Source: Parasedimentitalea huanghaiensis
GTDB taxonomy: Bacteria > Pseudomonadota > Alphaproteobacteria > Rhodobacterales > Rhodobacteraceae
Direction of reading: 5' to 3'
Length of the DNA stretch: 64,000 bases
Assembly (NCBI RefSeq): GCF_009753675.1
Contig: NZ_WQLV01000004.1
Coordinates: 1-64,000, forward strand
The number at the start of each line of letters is the position of its first letter. Position 1 is the stretch's first letter. This document shows, piece by piece, positions 27,620 to 54,481 of the stretch. The translations under genes were made by a program, and so were the position numbers. Below the pieces are notes generated by a model. That model was not told where the DNA came from. It saw only the letters and a program-made list of their open reading frames with translations, and ran no database searches.

Positions 27620-28758
27620 GCACGGGCGCTTTCCCGCGCCATCAAAAGGCGCTGGATGCGCTCAGGTCGCGGGGCCGCTATCGCAGCCTGATGCCCCGCG
27701 CAGGGCAGGATTTTGCGTCAAATGACTACCTCGGGCTGGCCGGGTCGGACCTGCTGCGCGACGCCGCCAGCGCCGCGCTTGAGCGTGGTGTACCTGTTGG
27801 AGCAGGCGGCTCACGCCTGCTGCGCGGTAATGCAGACGAACACCAACTATTGGAAACCGAGGCGGCAAGTTTTTTTGGTACGCAGGCTGCCTTGTTCATG
27901 AGCGGTGGGTTTCAGGCCAATCTGGCCATCTTCTCGACACTACCGCAGCACAGCGATCTGGTCCTGCATGATGAGTTGATTCATGCCAGCACCCATGATG
28001 GAATGCGATTGGGCCGCGCACAAACACGCAGTTTCGCCCACAATGATGTTGCTGCTGCCGAGGCTGAAATTGCAAAATGGCACGCCGACGGTGGCACTGG
28101 GCAAGTCTGGATCGCGGTTGAAGCGGTCTATTCGATGGATGGCGACTGTGCGCCCGTGGCGGCGCTTGCAGATTTGGCGACCCGGGTGGGCGCAGTTCTG
28201 GTGTTAGACGAAGCCCATTCGACCGGTGTGTTTGGTGACCTGGGGCGAGGTTTGGGGCATAAAGTGGCTCATTTTCCTAACGTCCTGTCTTTGCACACCT
28301 GTGGCAAGGCACTTGGAGCATCGGGCGCCTTGATCTGCGGCGCCTCCGCTCTGATCGAAACCCTGATCAACAAAGCACGTGCCTTTATTTATGCAACGGC
28401 TCCATCACCTCTGAATGCGGCCTTGGTGCGCGCTGCCTTGTCAGAACTGTTGCACAATCCCATGCGTCAGGATCAGCTGTGGAGCGCAATCCATCATGCT
28501 CATAGCGAGGCTGAAACTCACTGTGGCCTGAGCGGGTTTCAAAGTCAGATCCTTCCCATTATCATCGGTGACGACAAACGTACCATGGCTATAGCCATCG
28601 CTCTGCAGGACCGCGGCTATGACATTCGCGGAATCCGCCCCCCCACTGTTCCGCGCCGTACTTCGCGGTTGCGAATTTCGGTGACATTGAACACGTCAAA
28701 GCAGGTGATTTCAGCTCTGTTCGCTGATCTCGCCAAGGAACTGGAGGCCGCGACATGA
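27616..28758 (+). CDS. bioF: 8-amino-7-oxononanoate synthase BioF
   Basis: A 380-residue PLP enzyme that joins pimeloyl-ACP (or CoA) and alanine. Visible features are [16 protein letters not shown] near 62-77, the [11 protein letters not shown] block (about 198) that positions PLP, and the Schiff-base lysine in [11 protein letters not shown] (about 230). It overlaps bioB by four bases and bioD by four (ATGA). Confidence 0.95.
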
Positions 28759-29468
28759 GCGCTATTGTTGTCACAGGCACCGATACTGAGATCGGCAAAA
28801 CCGTGTTTTCCGCTGGCCTAACCGCCGCGCTCAACGCCACATATTGGAAACCAGTGCAATCGGGGCAGGAAGAGGAAACCGACAGCCAGATTGTCACCCG
28901 CCTGTCTGGTCGCCCGTCCTTGCCCGAGGGCTATCTGCTGCAACTGCCTGCTTCGCCACATCTGTCGGCCGAGGCCGAAGGCGTCGAAATTGATCCCGAC
29001 TCTCTGGACCTGCCACAGGTGGACGGCGTTCTGGTTGCCGAAGGTGCCGGTGGCTTGATGGTGCCGCTGAACCGCGAGGTTCTGTATCTGGATCTCTTTG
29101 CCCGTTGGGGCGCGCCTGTGATCCTTTGTGCCCGCACACAGTTGGGTACGATCAACCACACCTTGCTGTCCTTGCAGGCCCTACGTGGCGGGGGTTGCGA
29201 CGTGATCGGCGTAGCCTTTATTGGTGAGGCAGAAGACGCGGTAGAAGAGACCATTTGCCAATTCGGCAAAGTCGCGCATCTGGGACGCTTACCGATGATC
29301 GAGGGATTGAACAACGCAACAGAAGCGCCTGATCTTGGGGAGGTGCAAAGCGCCTTCCCAGGGGGAAGGTCAGGCGCGGACCAGCCTAGCGGCCGGTCTG
29401 AAGAGCTGCATCAAGCCTTCGCCAAACACATCGACCTCGACACGATCAAAAAGGCGATCCTGCCATGA
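28755..29468 (+). CDS. bioD: dethiobiotin synthetase BioD carrying an in-frame palindromic insertion
   Basis: A 237-residue ATP-dependent enzyme that closes the ureido ring of dethiobiotin. The Walker-like loop GTDTEIGKTV is at residues 8-17, VAEGAGGLMVPL near 94-105, and CARTQLGTINHT near 119-130. Residues about 191-209 (APDLGEVQSAFPGGRSGAD) are encoded by one copy of a dyad-symmetric repeat that also occurs between genes at three other places in this window. The insertion keeps the frame and lies near the C-terminus, after the LGRLPMIEGL segment. The catalytic motifs are intact, so the enzyme is probably active. It overlaps bioF and bioA by four bases each. Confidence 0.92.
   Translation: MSAIVVTGTDTEIGKTVFSAGLTAALNATYWKPVQSGQEEETDSQIVTRLSGRPSLPEGYLLQLPASPHLSAEAEGVEIDPDSLDLPQVDGVLVAEGAGGLMVPLNREVLYLDLFARWGAPVILCARTQLGTINHTLLSLQALRGGGCDVIGVAFIGEAEDAVEETICQFGKVAHLGRLPMIEGLNNATEAPDLGEVQSAFPGGRSGADQPSGRSEELHQAFAKHIDLDTIKKAILP
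29325..29382. repeat. palindromic element copy A, inside bioD
   Basis: A 58-base copy of a repeat family. Outer arms GCGCCTGATCTT (29325-29336) and AAGGTCAGGCGC (29366-29377) pair at 11 of 12 positions. Its reverse complement matches the 54406-54463 copy at 50 of 58 positions without gaps. It adds about 19 codons in frame to bioD. Confidence 0.85.
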
Positions 29469-30763
29469 GCGCATCTGACCTAACCCAGCTGGAATTCGAT
29501 CAACAGCACCTTTGGCATCCCTATACTAACGTCACGCAACCGGGGCCGACCTTTATGGTGAAAGAGTCGCAGGGTGTTCACCTGTCACTGGATGACGGCT
29601 GCCAATTGATCGATGCAATGTCGTCTTGGTGGTGCATGATGCATGGGCATCGTAACCCACGGGTTACCCAGGCGATGCACGACCAGCTGGACAAGCTGCC
29701 ACATGTGATGTTCGGCGGGTTGACCCATGACCCGGCAATCAACCTTGGTCGCAAGTTGCTCGAGATTACGCCAGAGAACCTGACGCGAATATTCTATTGT
29801 GACAGCGGCTCGGTCTCGGTCGAGGTGGCGATGAAAATGGCCGTTCAATATCAACACGCTATGGGATTCCCAGGGCGATCTCAATTCGCCACCGTGCGAT
29901 CCGGCTATCACGGTGACACATGGAAGGCGATGAGCGTCTGTGACCCTGACACCGGCATGCACCACCTGTTCCAAGGTGCGCTAAGTGTGCAGCATTTTGT
30001 CAACCGTCCACCGATCTGCCTGAACGAAGATTGGAATGATGATCCGGCGAAAAATGGTTTGGCAGATCTGCGCCGCCTGCTTGAAACGAACAAGGACAAG
30101 ATTGCAGGGTTCATCCTTGAACCCGTGGTGCAGGGAACTGGTGGGATGTATTTCTACCATCCCGAATACCTGAACCAAGCTCGCGCGATCTGCGATGAGC
30201 TGGGCATCTTGCTGATTTTTGACGAGATCGCCACAGGTTTTGGCCGCACCGGTGAAATGTTTGCCACCGACTTCTGCACCATCGAGCCGGATATCATCAG
30301 CCTGGGCAAGGGTCTGACCGCTGGGCATATCTCCTTCGCATGTACCATGACCAACGATCGTGTGGCGGAAGGTATCGGCGGCGGCAATCCCGGTATCTTT
30401 ATGCATGGTCCCACCTATATGGCGAACCCGTTGGCCTGCGTTGCAGCACTGGCCTCGCTGGAACTGCTGACCGAACAGGACACGCGCGCAACCGTTTCTG
30501 GCATTGCGGACCAAATGACAACTGAACTGGCCCCTGCGCAAGCATTACCCAATGTGGCGGATGTCAGGGTTCTGGGGGCAATTGGGGTGATTGAAATGAA
30601 GCACCGTGTTTCAGCCGATCAGGCCCATGGCTTGGCCCGTGAGATGGGCGTGTTCCTGCGACCCTTTGGCAAAAATGTCTATACCATGCCGCCCTTTATC
30701 ACCACGCCCAACCAGTTGACCCAGATCACCGACGGCATGTTGCGATTGGCACGAGAACTGTAA
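29465..30763 (+). CDS. bioA: adenosylmethionine-8-amino-7-oxononanoate aminotransferase BioA
   Basis: A 432-residue class III PLP aminotransferase that uses SAM as amino donor to form 7,8-diaminopelargonate. The substrate-binding SSWWCMMHGHRNP stretch near residue 54 is specific to BioA. The DEIATGFGRTG block lies near 251-261, and the PLP lysine is in SLGKGLTAG (about 280). TAA overlaps the bioG ATG by one base (TAATG). Confidence 0.96.
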   Translation: MSASDLTQLEFDQQHLWHPYTNVTQPGPTFMVKESQGVHLSLDDGCQLIDAMSSWWCMMHGHRNPRVTQAMHDQLDKLPHVMFGGLTHDPAINLGRKLLEITPENLTRIFYCDSGSVSVEVAMKMAVQYQHAMGFPGRSQFATVRSGYHGDTWKAMSVCDPDTGMHHLFQGALSVQHFVNRPPICLNEDWNDDPAKNGLADLRRLLETNKDKIAGFILEPVVQGTGGMYFYHPEYLNQARAICDELGILLIFDEIATGFGRTGEMFATDFCTIEPDIISLGKGLTAGHISFACTMTNDRVAEGIGGGNPGIFMHGPTYMANPLACVAALASLELLTEQDTRATVSGIADQMTTELAPAQALPNVADVRVLGAIGVIEMKHRVSADQAHGLAREMGVFLRPFGKNVYTMPPFITTPNQLTQITDGMLRLAREL

Positions 30764-31380
30764 TGGACTTTCGCTGGTTAAAGAGAGAGTATGAGGCCGA
30801 AGCCATTGTCGTCTTTGGCGGTTGGGCGGTTGGTTCGCAAGTGTTCGACCACCTGACCGGCCCATACGACGTTCTCTTTGCTAGCGACTTTCGTGACCTT
30901 AATGCCGATCTGCCGGACCTGACCGCATATGACAGGATCAACCTGGTCGCTTGGTCCTTTGGCGTAGTGGCTTATGCCCATTGGCAGCAGGGACGTGCCG
31001 ATCCTTTTGGCCACAAGGTTGCTGTGAACGGCACATTGACGCCAGTTGACCGGATGACTGGCGTGCCGCCCGTGGCTATGAGCAAAACGATTGAAACCTT
31101 AAGTCAGGAGACCTACCAGCTGTTCTTGGCCCGTGCTTTCAACAAACGTCAGCAAAATGTTCCGATTGACTGCGTTGCCCGTCGCGAAGAATTGTGTGAA
31201 ATTGAAGCCCGTGGCGATGCGCAGGGGATAGAGTTTGATCTTGTCTGGATCAGCGACGCCGACAAGATTTTTCCAACGGCCAATCAAAAACGTGCTTGGC
31301 CAGACGGATGGTCCCGACAGGTTTCCGCTCCTCATGCTCCATTCGGACATTTTTCAAATTGGCAGGAGTTATTGTCTTGA
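30763..31380 (+). CDS. bioG: BioG-type pimeloyl-[acyl-carrier protein] methyl ester esterase (DUF452)
   Basis: A 205-residue alpha/beta hydrolase of the BioG/DUF452 family, which removes the methyl group from pimeloyl-ACP methyl ester. The nucleophile elbow is AWSFGV near residue 64 (Ser), the oxyanion region is FGGWAVG near 19-25, and the C-terminal APHAPFGHF segment likely supplies the catalytic His. It replaces E. coli BioH and lies within the biotin operon, directly after bioA and before bioC. Confidence 0.87.
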   Translation: MDFRWLKREYEAEAIVVFGGWAVGSQVFDHLTGPYDVLFASDFRDLNADLPDLTAYDRINLVAWSFGVVAYAHWQQGRADPFGHKVAVNGTLTPVDRMTGVPPVAMSKTIETLSQETYQLFLARAFNKRQQNVPIDCVARREELCEIEARGDAQGIEFDLVWISDADKIFPTANQKRAWPDGWSRQVSAPHAPFGHFSNWQELLS

Positions 31381-35252: not shown

Positions 35253-37288
35253 TGGCGGGTCTTAGCAAGGGAAGCCTTGCCGCATTGGTGGCCCTGGTCG
35301 TGGGTGCATTGTGCCTGCTGCTGGAAACCACGATGCCCTGGCTGGTGACATTCCCCGAGACGTTAGTTGTGCCAGCAACCGAATGGGTTGGCGCTGCCAT
35401 GACCTGGCTGTTGCAACTGCTTAAGCCAATTGCACGGGCGTTCTCGGCGCTGATGTCCTATCCGATGGAGGCCACCAATCTAGTATTGGGGAGCTCGCCT
35501 TGGATCTTGGTGATTGCGGTGGTGACAGCCATTGGCTGGATGCTAGGCGGTGTGTCGATGGCGCTGATGGCCGTTGTGGGGTTGGGCTTTGTGCTGGCTT
35601 CGGGCTATTGGCATGAAAGTATGAACACCCTGTCGCTGGTAGCGGTTTCGGTTCCTTTGGCGTTGATCGTCGGCGGTGGCATCGGTGTGTTGGCCAATGA
35701 ATACCCGCGTTTTCGCAAACCGGTGCAGGCGATGCTGGACATCATGCAGACGGTGCCGACCTTTGCCTATCTGACGCCGTTGTTGGTGCTGTTTGGCTTT
35801 GGTCCTGTGGTGGGGCTGATTGCCAGTGCGATCTATGCTGCGCCACCGATGGCGCGCAATGTGCTGCTGGGACTGGAACGGATTGAACCAGAGATCAAAG
35901 AAGCCGCGATCATGGCCGGGGGAACCCGGTTGCAGCAGCTGTTTCAAGTCGAGATCCCCTCGGCAGCGACGCAGATTTTGGTGGGGGTCAACCAATGTCT
36001 GATGGCGGCGCTTTCGATGGTGATCATCGCGGCTGTGATCGGTGGCTTTGATGACATCGGCTGGGAAGTTCTGCTGACCATGCGCAAGGCGCAGTTTGGT
36101 CCGGCGTTGATGGCTGGCTTGGTCATTGTGGTGTTTGCTGTGATCATTGACCGGATGAGCGGTACCTTGGCGCAGGACAATCGCAAACGCTATGATGCAC
36201 GGGTCGCCTGGGGCATTCTGGCGGTTGGTGTTGTCGCCAGTGCAGTCACTTGGAACAGCCTGCCGAATCCATCCGAGTATTCAGCCTTTGATGGCGCAGT
36301 TAATGCGGTGGATGCGGGGCTAAGCGCCTTTACCACGGCCAATTGGCAATGGTTGGCGGCCATCAAAAACAACGTGCTGTATTTTGGGTTGCTGCCGCTG
36401 CGTATTGGTCTGGATGAGGCCGTTCTGCCGTTCACCTGGGGGTTCCAGTGGACAACGCAATGGAGCATGGGACTGTTCGCTGTTGGTGCGGTTGCCGGAC
36501 TGGTTCTGGCGCTGCGCGGGCAAGTGACATGGGGAATCATGACATTGATCTTCGTTGGGATGCTGGAAACTGGGATCACCAATCTGCCATGGCCGTTTGT
36601 TCTTGTCGGAGTCGCATCCCTAGGCTGGGTGGCATCGGGGCATGGGCTTGCGGTTCTGTCGGTCGGGTTGCTGTTGACTATTCTGCTGTCGGGGCTGTGG
36701 GATCGTGCGATGTTGTCGCTGTACCTAAGCGGCGCTGCGGTGTTTGCCTGTGCGATCGCTGGGGGCGGTATCGGTTTGCTGTGTGCGGTGTCACCTATGG
36801 CGTGGCGGATCATCCGGCCGATTTGTGACATGTTGCAGACCATTCCGTTGTTTGTCTTCCTGATCCCTGTGCTGATGGTGTTTCAGATTGGCGAGTTCTC
36901 GGCGTTTCTGGCGATCATCGCTTATGCCATCGTGCCGATGATCCGCTACAGCCGTCATGGGCTGACCGAGACCCCGGACGAGATGATCGAGGCAGCAATT
37001 GCATCTGGAGCCACTACTTGGCAGATCCTGCGCGATGTGCGTGCGCCCTATGCGGCGCCGACCATCCTGTTGGGGTTGAACCAGACTATTCTGTATGCCT
37101 TTGCAATGCTGGTGATCGCCGCGCTGATCGGTACCACCGGTTTGGGTCAGTTGATCTATCTGGCGCTGGGTCAGGCAGATGTGGGTCTTGGAATCTCTGC
37201 AGGTGCTGCCATGGCAATTCTGGCATTAATTGCCGACCGCATGGTTCAGGGCTTTGCCGAGGAACGGCGTAAGGTGCTGGGACTGTAA
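35252..37288 (+). CDS. double-length ABC transporter permease (two fused BPD_transp domains)
   Basis: A 678-residue inner-membrane protein carrying two complete permease domains. The first has its EAA loop at EAAIMAGGTRLQQLFQVEIP near residue 216. The second has EAAIASGATTWQILRDVRAP near 580. Between them are additional hydrophobic helices. Most homologues are single-domain proteins that dimerise, so this is a gene fusion giving a pseudo-symmetric channel. ATG 35252 follows the ATPase stop directly (TGATG). It completes a three-gene importer for a quaternary amine or TMAO. Confidence 0.88.
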   Translation: MAGLSKGSLAALVALVVGALCLLLETTMPWLVTFPETLVVPATEWVGAAMTWLLQLLKPIARAFSALMSYPMEATNLVLGSSPWILVIAVVTAIGWMLGGVSMALMAVVGLGFVLASGYWHESMNTLSLVAVSVPLALIVGGGIGVLANEYPRFRKPVQAMLDIMQTVPTFAYLTPLLVLFGFGPVVGLIASAIYAAPPMARNVLLGLERIEPEIKEAAIMAGGTRLQQLFQVEIPSAATQILVGVNQCLMAALSMVIIAAVIGGFDDIGWEVLLTMRKAQFGPALMAGLVIVVFAVIIDRMSGTLAQDNRKRYDARVAWGILAVGVVASAVTWNSLPNPSEYSAFDGAVNAVDAGLSAFTTANWQWLAAIKNNVLYFGLLPLRIGLDEAVLPFTWGFQWTTQWSMGLFAVGAVAGLVLALRGQVTWGIMTLIFVGMLETGITNLPWPFVLVGVASLGWVASGHGLAVLSVGLLLTILLSGLWDRAMLSLYLSGAAVFACAIAGGGIGLLCAVSPMAWRIIRPICDMLQTIPLFVFLIPVLMVFQIGEFSAFLAIIAYAIVPMIRYSRHGLTETPDEMIEAAIASGATTWQILRDVRAPYAAPTILLGLNQTILYAFAMLVIAALIGTTGLGQLIYLALGQADVGLGISAGAAMAILALIADRMVQGFAEERRKVLGL

Positions 37289-37316
37289 CTAAAACTTGGT
37301 TTGGCCTGGCAGTGCC

Positions 37317-37404
37317 GGGCCGCACCTGACCTTTCCGTCAAACCAAAAGTTTGCCTGCAGCAATACGGGAAAGCGCTTTGCACCTCCTCAAGGTCAAGCG
37401 CGCT
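37317..37404. repeat. palindromic element copy B, downstream of the transporter
   Basis: A longer copy of the same repeat family. Its left part (37317-37337, with CCTGACCTT) and right part (37366-37404, with CTCAAGGTCAAGCGC) match the other copies. About 28 unrelated bases have been added at the central loop. The right part matches bioD copy A (reversed) at 31 of 36 positions. It lies between the permease and nnrU-like genes. Confidence 0.7.
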
Positions 37405-37476
37405 CCTCATTTGGTGGACGATGCTATTGGCTTGGCCTACACATTCTCTCAGCTTTCAGAATTTCCGGAAATTGAG

Positions 37477-50952: not shown

Positions 50953-51192
50953 ATGTCCATCTGTGTCTTTATCCAAATTCGCTGCAAACCCGGCACCACC
51001 TATAAAGTTGCCGAGGACATTGCGCTGCGGGAAATTCATTCCGAGTTGTATTCCACCAGTGGGGACTTTGATCTGCTGATGAAGCTGTACATTCCGGCGG
51101 ATGAGGATGTGGGCAAATATATCAATGATCACCTGCTGGTGATCGAGGGTATCGAGCGGTCGCTGACTACGATGACTTACAAGGTATTTTGA
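50953..51192 (+). CDS. stand-alone Lrp/AsnC ligand-binding (RAM) domain protein
   Basis: A 79-residue protein consisting only of the effector-binding domain of Lrp/AsnC regulators: FIQIRCKPGTTYKVAEDI, then SGDFDLLMKLYIP and LTTMTYKVF. It lacks an HTH. Such stand-alone modules bind amino acids and form ring assemblies. It lies divergently next to hisB, though a direct link to amino acid sensing is speculative. Confidence 0.82.
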   Translation: MSICVFIQIRCKPGTTYKVAEDIALREIHSELYSTSGDFDLLMKLYIPADEDVGKYINDHLLVIEGIERSLTTMTYKVF

Positions 51193-51228
51193 GCGGGAAC
51201 ATGAGAAGATTTGCTCGGCGGTAACGCC

Positions 51229-51292
51229 GGGCAGCGCCCGACCCTCCCCACGGGAGGGCGCTTTCGCACCCACCCAGGGTCAGGCGCTGCCC
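51229..51292. repeat. palindromic element copy C, between converging genes
   Basis: A 64-base copy. Outer arms 51229-51245 and 51276-51292 (17 bases each) pair at 16 positions (right arm AGGGTCAGGCGCTGCCC), and an inner CCCTCC/GGGAGGG hairpin sits in the left half. It is more diverged from copies A and D but has the same order of blocks. It lies between the Lrp-like and aminotransferase gene ends. Confidence 0.75.
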
Positions 51293-51301
51293 TAGTGTGT
51301 A

Positions 51302-54376: not shown

Positions 54377-54405
54377 AGCTGCGCCTTTGGTCCGACCGAT
54401 AGGTT

Positions 54406-54468
54406 GGACCGCGCCTGACCTTCCCCCCGGGAAGGCGCTCCACGCCTCCCCAAGGTCAGGCGTGGTCC
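54406..54468. repeat. palindromic element copy D, between methyltransferase and endonuclease genes
   Basis: A 63-base copy. Outer arms GGACCGCGCCTGACCTT and AAGGTCAGGCGTGGTCC pair at 16 of 17 positions, and CCTTCCC/GGGAAGG forms an inner hairpin. It is the most regular copy and matches the reversed bioD copy at 50 of 58 positions. Confidence 0.85.
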
Positions 54469-54481
54469 TACATAAAAAGTG

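Follow-up and report, generated by a model that had tools for sequence, protein, structure and literature searches.

A REP-like hairpin carried in frame by bioD in Parasedimentitalea huanghaiensis and its genus

The dethiobiotin synthetase gene bioD in the window analysed here (64,000 nucleotides of Parasedimentitalea huanghaiensis) carries in frame a REP-like hairpin of about 75–85 nt, a repeat known so far solely from this bacterial family. The reading that we consider very probable is that this hairpin entered bioD in an ancestor of the genus, kept an open frame in which it is read as a floppy loop, was passed on by vertical descent and has been conserved at the level of the DNA. Under this model, the last common ancestor of the genus would already have carried the element in the C-terminal loop of the gene, where it would have been retained because its bioD frame has no stop codon and is translated into a floppy loop that lies between the last strand and the C-terminal helices. 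Inheritance would then have been vertical with the frame of the gene protected (deletions, a divergent copy and a nested palindrome are all in frame), and the in-gene hairpin would remain conserved as DNA, the most likely cause being upkeep of its structure by selection or by an element-directed process. The features on which this reading rests are listed in Table 1.

Table 1. Host genes, parts of the in-gene element and further copies in the window (positions counted from the first base of the window).
Feature	Position	Strand	Basis
bioD (dethiobiotin synthetase), 237 aa, intact frame with element	28755..29468	+	ORF; Pfam AAA_26, E = 5.5e-58
Inserted segment, 84 nt, residues 188–215 (ATEAPDLGEVQSAFPGGRSGADQPSGRS)	29316..29399	+	Protein alignment with insert-free homologues
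Repeat element, full covariance-model match	29317..29401	+	85.9 bits, E = 2.3e-15; RNA fold
Main hairpin	29325..29377	+	RNA fold; stem covariation over 64 matches
Main hairpin, 5' side	29325..29346	+	
Main hairpin, loop	29347..29349	+	
Main hairpin, inner 3' side	29350..29360	+	
Main hairpin, six-base bulge	29361..29366	+	
Main hairpin, outer 3' side	29367..29377	+	
3' hairpin, GGACC...GGTCT	29378..29399	+	RNA fold; two-partner pairing test
bioG, free of insert in the window	30763..31380	+	Pfam BioG, E = 3.2e-22
Weak copy	37298..37409	-	32.8 bits, E = 0.0019
Intergenic copy between two convergent ORFs	51210..51295	-	81.2 bits
Intergenic copy, partner of the bioD match in the earlier note	54387..54471	-	91.0 bits

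An earlier note on this DNA had matched 58 bases of bioD (29325–29382) to the reverse complement of 54406–54468 at 50 of 58 positions, and we obtained the same count in an ungapped comparison. A BLAST search of the whole genome (4.86 Mb, 40 contigs) with the 54 kb copy as query returned 29326–29379 at 89% identity (E = 8.4e-14). The covariance score of the bioD copy arises partly by construction, because that copy is itself among the 37 used to build the model; the BLAST figure is free of this. Folded as RNA, the element strand reaches -51.2 kcal/mol, whereas shuffled versions average -32.6 (z = -5.5), and none of 200 shuffles is equally stable.

The 58-mer proves to be the main hairpin alone, and the larger unit consists of a bulged hairpin plus a 3' hairpin. 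In an alignment of 37 copies (45 candidates, from 18 places in the window genome and 27 in relatives, less eight that were short, truncated, odd or duplicate), the whole unit comprises a 5' arm (AGGGCCGCGCCTGACCTT), an inner hairpin with an AAA loop, a six-base G-rich bulge and a 3' arm, which is followed in most copies by the short 3' hairpin. The first bases of this 3' hairpin double as the end of the main stem in other copies. Across 64 diverse matches, 94.7% of stem cells are paired and 16 of the 21 pairs show double-sided changes; the covariation score is 0.366 as against 0.179 in shuffles (none of 500 as high) and is destroyed when the partner is slid by one to three columns, figures that are somewhat favoured by an alignment fitted to the model. 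Two partners are possible for the tetramer that closes the main stem: in 42 of the 59 copies used (of 64 rows; 1,000 shuffles, mean 26.4, maximum 33) it can pair in full with the 5' end, and in 40 of the 59 (mean 24.5, maximum 33) its exact complement lies downstream, at the 3' hairpin. Copies such as L113, L004, L143 and L145 form a subtype with GGCCCG...CGGGCC or GACCCG...CGGGTC ends, in which a different tail (for example, GTGCGGCTTTGCCTTACGTCCC) replaces the GCCCGGC...GCCGGGC hairpin. Some copies (L136, L137 and L135 on contigs C33, C37 and C35 of the window genome, and L232 in the bioD of genome G002) hold within their bulge a second palindrome (CGTCAAACCG...TTTGCC on one strand), which starts with CGTC and, judged by eye, may be a true CGTC REP.

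The covariance model finds four copies in the window (starting at 29317, 37298, 51210 and 54387), that at 37298 being weak; the latter belongs to a 112-nt class like the nested variant and lies just past an ORF ending at 37288, and the copy at 51210 fills almost exactly the gap between convergent ORFs that end at 51192 and 51302. A genome-wide search with the model, for which the earlier note had predicted further copies, yielded 41 matches at E <= 0.01, which correspond to 35 places (six matches are the opposite strand of another), and 19 matches at E <= 1e-8. Copies are dense on two small contigs, C33 (91,680 bases; five places) and C9 (89,387 bases; three places; both at E <= 0.002), in contrast with the 35 distinct places (E <= 0.01, opposite-strand duplicates not counted) in 4.86 Mb. 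Each of eight genomes of the genus holds 15 to 44 copies at E <= 1e-8 (model of 85 positions). In a sample of the family, at least 65 of 149 genomes, the window genome included, have a match at E <= 1e-4, a lower bound given that at most 30 candidates per genome were scored. In a sample of the class, 2 of 240 genomes matched at E <= 1e-6 among the matches listed, namely the window genome and another of the same family (18 candidates were scored per listed genome, such that weak matches may be lost). No Rfam family reached its threshold for the element, and the window matches at gathering threshold were tRNAs only; a near-consensus copy is far from the threshold of every family, which rules out a known Rfam RNA.

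The best PDB matches of the bioD product, both by sequence and by fold, are dethiobiotin synthetases. The earlier note had proposed an in-frame insertion of about 19 residues (191–209); the in-frame insertion stands, but its size is 28 residues (188–215), that is, 84 nt with the second hairpin included. As that note had anticipated, homologues outside the genus generally lack the segment: in 37 of 41 such rows the flanks join directly (for example, LNN/EVLAEVF in L054 as compared with LNN/28 aa/EELHQAF in the window), and the segment is hence not ordinary conserved BioD sequence. The other four rows, from three genomes (L035; L041 and its duplicate L235; L050), have something at the same loop. 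That of L035 is an intact element of different sequence (65.4 bits), the sole intact one by the model among these three bioD genes; the L041 insert has a palindromic look by eye and L050 has only about eight extra residues, both being unmatched by the model. The first homologue alignment used 40 of 53 loci; that of 41 rows lost L258 (no start motif), left out L259 and contains duplicates (L041 = L235; L031–L034 = L228, L229, L233 and L234; L061 and L245 look alike). The BioD sample is limited, as no more than 25 of the 295 family genomes covered by a wider survey had a BioD match at E <= 1e-30. One bioD-like match, L079 (CP087974.1, Rhizobium sp.), has a stop codon in its translated frame.

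An AlphaFold2 model of the product (39 sequences) has a mean pLDDT of 87.4, and the sole segment below 50 is residues 188–212, between the last strand (175–179) and the C-terminal helices (216–235); few rows cover the insert, and the low pLDDT may partly reflect that. The model suggests that the added 28-residue loop is probably floppy or disordered, and the peptide is presumably exposed and tolerated in a folded enzyme.

All eight of these genomes of the genus carry the insert or a remnant of it in bioD, and in all eight the gene is open and the length changes are in frame. The insert is intact in the window, G004 (Zongyanglinia marina, L031), G005 (Parasedimentitalea denitrificans, L032) and G006; the inner hairpin is deleted in G003, the second palindrome is nested in the bulge in G002, the copy of G007 (L033) is divergent (53.3 bits) and G001 (L034) retains a short remnant. 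As none of the eight has a pre-insertion bioD, other genera serve as the basis for deducing the exact junction and any target duplication. The window copy differs at 1, 7 and 10 of 85 positions from its bioD orthologues and at no fewer than 15 from each of 17 paralogues in its own genome, which argues for vertical inheritance. We infer that one insertion founded all copies in the genus, although that of G007 may represent a second.

Given these orthologues, the insert can be compared with the remainder of the gene. In seven pairs of genus genomes, pS is 0.05–0.29 in the insert versus 0.43–0.62 in the rest of bioD, and pN/pS is 0.37–0.76 in six pairs and 0 in the closest, versus 0.05–0.20 in the rest; with pS low and pN/pS generally higher in the insert, the constraint looks DNA-level and not protein-level. 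Per site, the insert shows fewer nucleotide differences in every one of the six pairs formed by the four intact copies (Fisher p = 0.0003, 0.035, 0.059, 0.013, 0.034 and 0.00058, the pairs being non-independent), although these figures come from 84 nt in four or five genomes and p is only 0.034–0.059 in three of the six pairs. Six of the 12 variable columns fall at paired positions (five pairs), where standard pairing is kept except for one change in G004; two of these six columns form a double compensatory change in G006. By eye, the G002 copy has broken pairs in its 3' hairpin. From these patterns, the hairpin structure seems to be maintained within the coding region. Orthologous intergenic copies give a mixed picture: they are less diverged than both flanks at site A (three of three pairs), at site B between the window genome and G005, and at site D, barely so at site B between G004 and G005, and not so at site B between the window genome and G004 or at site C.

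The same element also occurs in frame in other genes. bioG, the next-but-one gene after bioD, is without it in the window and in G004; in G003 and G005 an intact element lies in frame at the N-terminus, after M-x-F-R-W-L (by N-terminal comparison and model matches), and in the L041 genome in frame after VDFRWL. At this place the bioG genes of G001, G002, G006 and G007 contain brief in-frame stretches that, by eye, look like what is left of the 3' half of the element. In G151, of another genus, a copy of 58.7 bits is in frame in nnr between YjeF_N (31–227) and Carb_kinase (307–545), which makes nnr a probable further host gene; the length of this linker varies among the relatives aligned, which makes absence of the element less clear-cut here than for bioD. 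Each of the three genes reads a different frame, all on the same strand. Two forward frames of the consensus contain no stop (frame 0 in bioD and frame 1 in bioG), and different copies can therefore be read as different peptides; frame 2, used by nnr, contains a TGA, which is CGA in the nnr copy. Among 91 distinct aligned copies, all taken in register, 62 are open in the bioD frame, 78 in the bioG frame and 30 in the nnr frame. ORF screens for further in-gene copies (126 distinct loci plus 60 more) gave many long ORFs, most probably spurious. Pfam found a domain in seven of 38 distinct ORFs (window bioG not counted), with the element between domains in nnr only; in the other six it starts at residue 8–107, upstream of the first domain, and thus probably before the real start. 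As this domain screen would miss N-terminal cases such as bioG, the in-gene counts are lower bounds.

Most copies lie between genes. Of 32 places in three genomes (1.19 Mb), 22 are between same-direction genes, six between convergent genes, none between divergent genes and four within genes, against background gaps of at least 60 nt numbering 324, 97 and 102 for same-direction, convergent and divergent neighbours; the chance of 0 of 28 being divergent is 0.0023, with the reservation that orthologous copies are non-independent and some places overlap called ORF ends. This count used a simple ORF caller and covers 32 of 33 distinct matches; the 33rd, weak place is same-direction, giving 0 of 29 intergenic places between divergent genes.

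Many copies occupy the same places in three species, and some are absent or changed (for example, that of bioG). One site of the nested palindrome (C33:30839 in the window genome, C12:350815 in G004 and C1:380290 in G005) has it in two species and lacks it in the third. Few empty sites were seen and many copies are stable between species, such that no copy was observed in the course of moving. The main stem has ends that pair, and the occupied and empty sites compared (bioG; the G005 copy at 156717) are too diverged for a target-site duplication to be either read or dismissed. PF01797 (Y1_Tnp, RAYT-type) has no match in the window genome, G002, G003 or G004; it was found in the other four of the eight genus genomes, where none of nine loci has an element at E <= 1. 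The lack of a Y1_Tnp match rules out a RAYT-driven REP in the window genome. The earlier note had spoken of a mobile palindrome: a many-copy repeat it is, but its movement is supported only indirectly, given the few empty sites and the lack of that transposase match.

Several other explanations deserve to be weighed. Chance resemblance might be suspected, as a loose pattern (part of the element, up to three mismatches) is no commoner in the window than expected (19 matches versus 12.9, with 8 of 100 shuffles giving as many); however, the BLAST E-value for the whole unit and the dozens of copies in the genus refute it, as the 37 insert-free rows refute ordinary BioD sequence, and we give this explanation practically no credence. 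It is also highly improbable that bioD is a decaying pseudogene whose frame is still open by luck: an insert of this bulk close to the C-terminus might suggest decay, but the frame is preserved throughout the genus and the rest of the gene is under strong purifying constraint, as the pN/pS values above indicate. By contrast with these two, we lean somewhat towards repeated, independent insertion into this loop as a hot spot over a single old insertion that was lost many times. In a tree of BioF and BioA (which left out L068, L069, L072 and the duplicates L032 and L033), the genus forms a single clade (SH-aLRT 100), with the three remaining carriers placed elsewhere; at least four changes are needed if L035, L041 and L050 all count as carriers, and trees constrained to group the carriers are rejected (p = 3.9e-9 for the genus with L035, 0.0078 with L041 and 1e-5 for all). 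This scatter makes recurrent insertion likely, and the different sequence of the intact L035 element at the same loop points the same way. Nevertheless, only L035 is a sure second case, since the L041 and L050 inserts are unmatched by the model, and a single old insertion followed by several losses may also fit the same tree. In that tree, the biotin gene run of L041 (JAHVJD010000005.1), titled Nocardioides marinus, falls inside Leisingera, and the record is therefore probably mislabelled or contaminated.

Two further alternatives concern why the insert has diverged so little. Gene conversion or repeated re-insertion by other copies, instead of selection on structure, strikes us as rather unlikely. 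The bioD copies of G005 and G006 are in part identical to the genus consensus, and at about this position G007 holds another subfamily, as if its copy had been replaced or a second one had inserted; yet the copies of the window, G004, G005 and G006 are mutually closer than to any of 17 paralogues (all taken from the window genome, also for the G005 and G006 copies), and the window and G004 have the changes T18 and A45 in common. We infer that structure rather than gene conversion lies behind the conservation. The hairpin could alternatively be an RNA element of the bio operon, acting in processing or stability of the bioD-bioA-bioG message with coding as a side effect, an explanation that we find doubtful. 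The very stable fold, ending 63 nt before the bioA start, would suit such a role, as would the additional site that other species have in bioG, within the same gene run, the pairs mostly kept despite coding (with the compensatory change in G006) and the lack of copies between divergent genes. Against it, many relatives have bioD without the insert and the window genome has bioG without a copy, so the element is not needed; moreover, no terminator-like site lies at the bioD element (an intrinsic terminator was sought in 29200–29600), and G001 and G003 have lost much of the hairpin. More speculative, and in our estimation improbable, is that the insert has two jobs, with the same 84 nt serving as a translated enzyme loop and as a kept nucleic-acid structure with a switchable segment (the end of the main stem, with its two possible partners across the element family). 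If this were true, the occurrence of the element in both bioD and bioG would point to an action of the structure on the biotin gene run that they share, and an invading palindrome would have become a regulatory and a protein-coding part at once.

The preferred reading, an old insertion retained in frame and conserved as DNA, bears on whether in-gene palindromes are tolerated junk or are retained for their structure, a question that has so far been hard to test. Rickettsia, the home of the best-known cases, is hard to grow and manipulate; the host group of this element is free-living and marine. As the element sits in a selectable pathway (biotin prototrophy) and eight genomes provide a natural series of its states (intact, trimmed, nested, divergent and remnant), the question becomes directly testable.

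Two other alphaproteobacteria, S. alaskensis and E. lithoralis, are relevant to a comparison with known repeats. The earlier note had named Rickettsia as the setting of in-frame palindromes; this holds for the RPEs, but not for Rickettsia alone, given that REPs are described inside genes of several other bacteria, S. alaskensis and E. lithoralis among them (PMC3733652). RPEs of Rickettsia and Wolbachia are described as palindromic repeats in frame in protein genes, with orthologues carrying inserts at the same site, different groups at nearby sites and an added peptide that is solvent-exposed (PMC3767692, PMC10969869). The present element likewise lies inside ORFs without breaking the frame in several genomes (bioD and bioG, with nnr probable). 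It differs in length (a unit of about 75–85 nt and an insert of 84 nt versus 100–150 bp; PMC3767692), in being a G+C-rich bulged hairpin with an overlapping 3' hairpin, and in having two sure host genes and one probable, a contrast drawn from RPE descriptions. REPs (GTAG and CGTC superfamilies) are reported to be palindromic, present in many copies and mostly intergenic, between convergent or same-direction genes and near gene ends; some lie in genes, and two Xanthomonas species carry different REPs at roughly the same point of recB (PMC3733652). The intergenic copies of our element are placed similarly (between same-direction or convergent genes, near gene ends). However, REPs are defined there by a terminal GTAG or CGTC tag on a hairpin of 20–40 bp (PMC3733652), whereas the consensus of 37 copies starts nnAGGGCC without such an end tag, the unit is longer (about 80 nt) and no Y1_Tnp gene was found in the window genome. 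With MITEs (for example, ERIC, RUP and QMITE), described as short repeats able to fuse in frame with genes (PMC10969869), the element has in common that it is a short repeat read in frame with genes; at the strongly diverged sites compared, no target-site duplication was recognised. No prior description of the element was found in the open-licence literature searched, mostly titles and abstracts, and one may be printed elsewhere. As it lacks the tag, size and RAYT of REPs and the size of RPEs, we file it as a separate, family-specific element, one that works like the in-gene palindromes already published, also outside Rickettsia.
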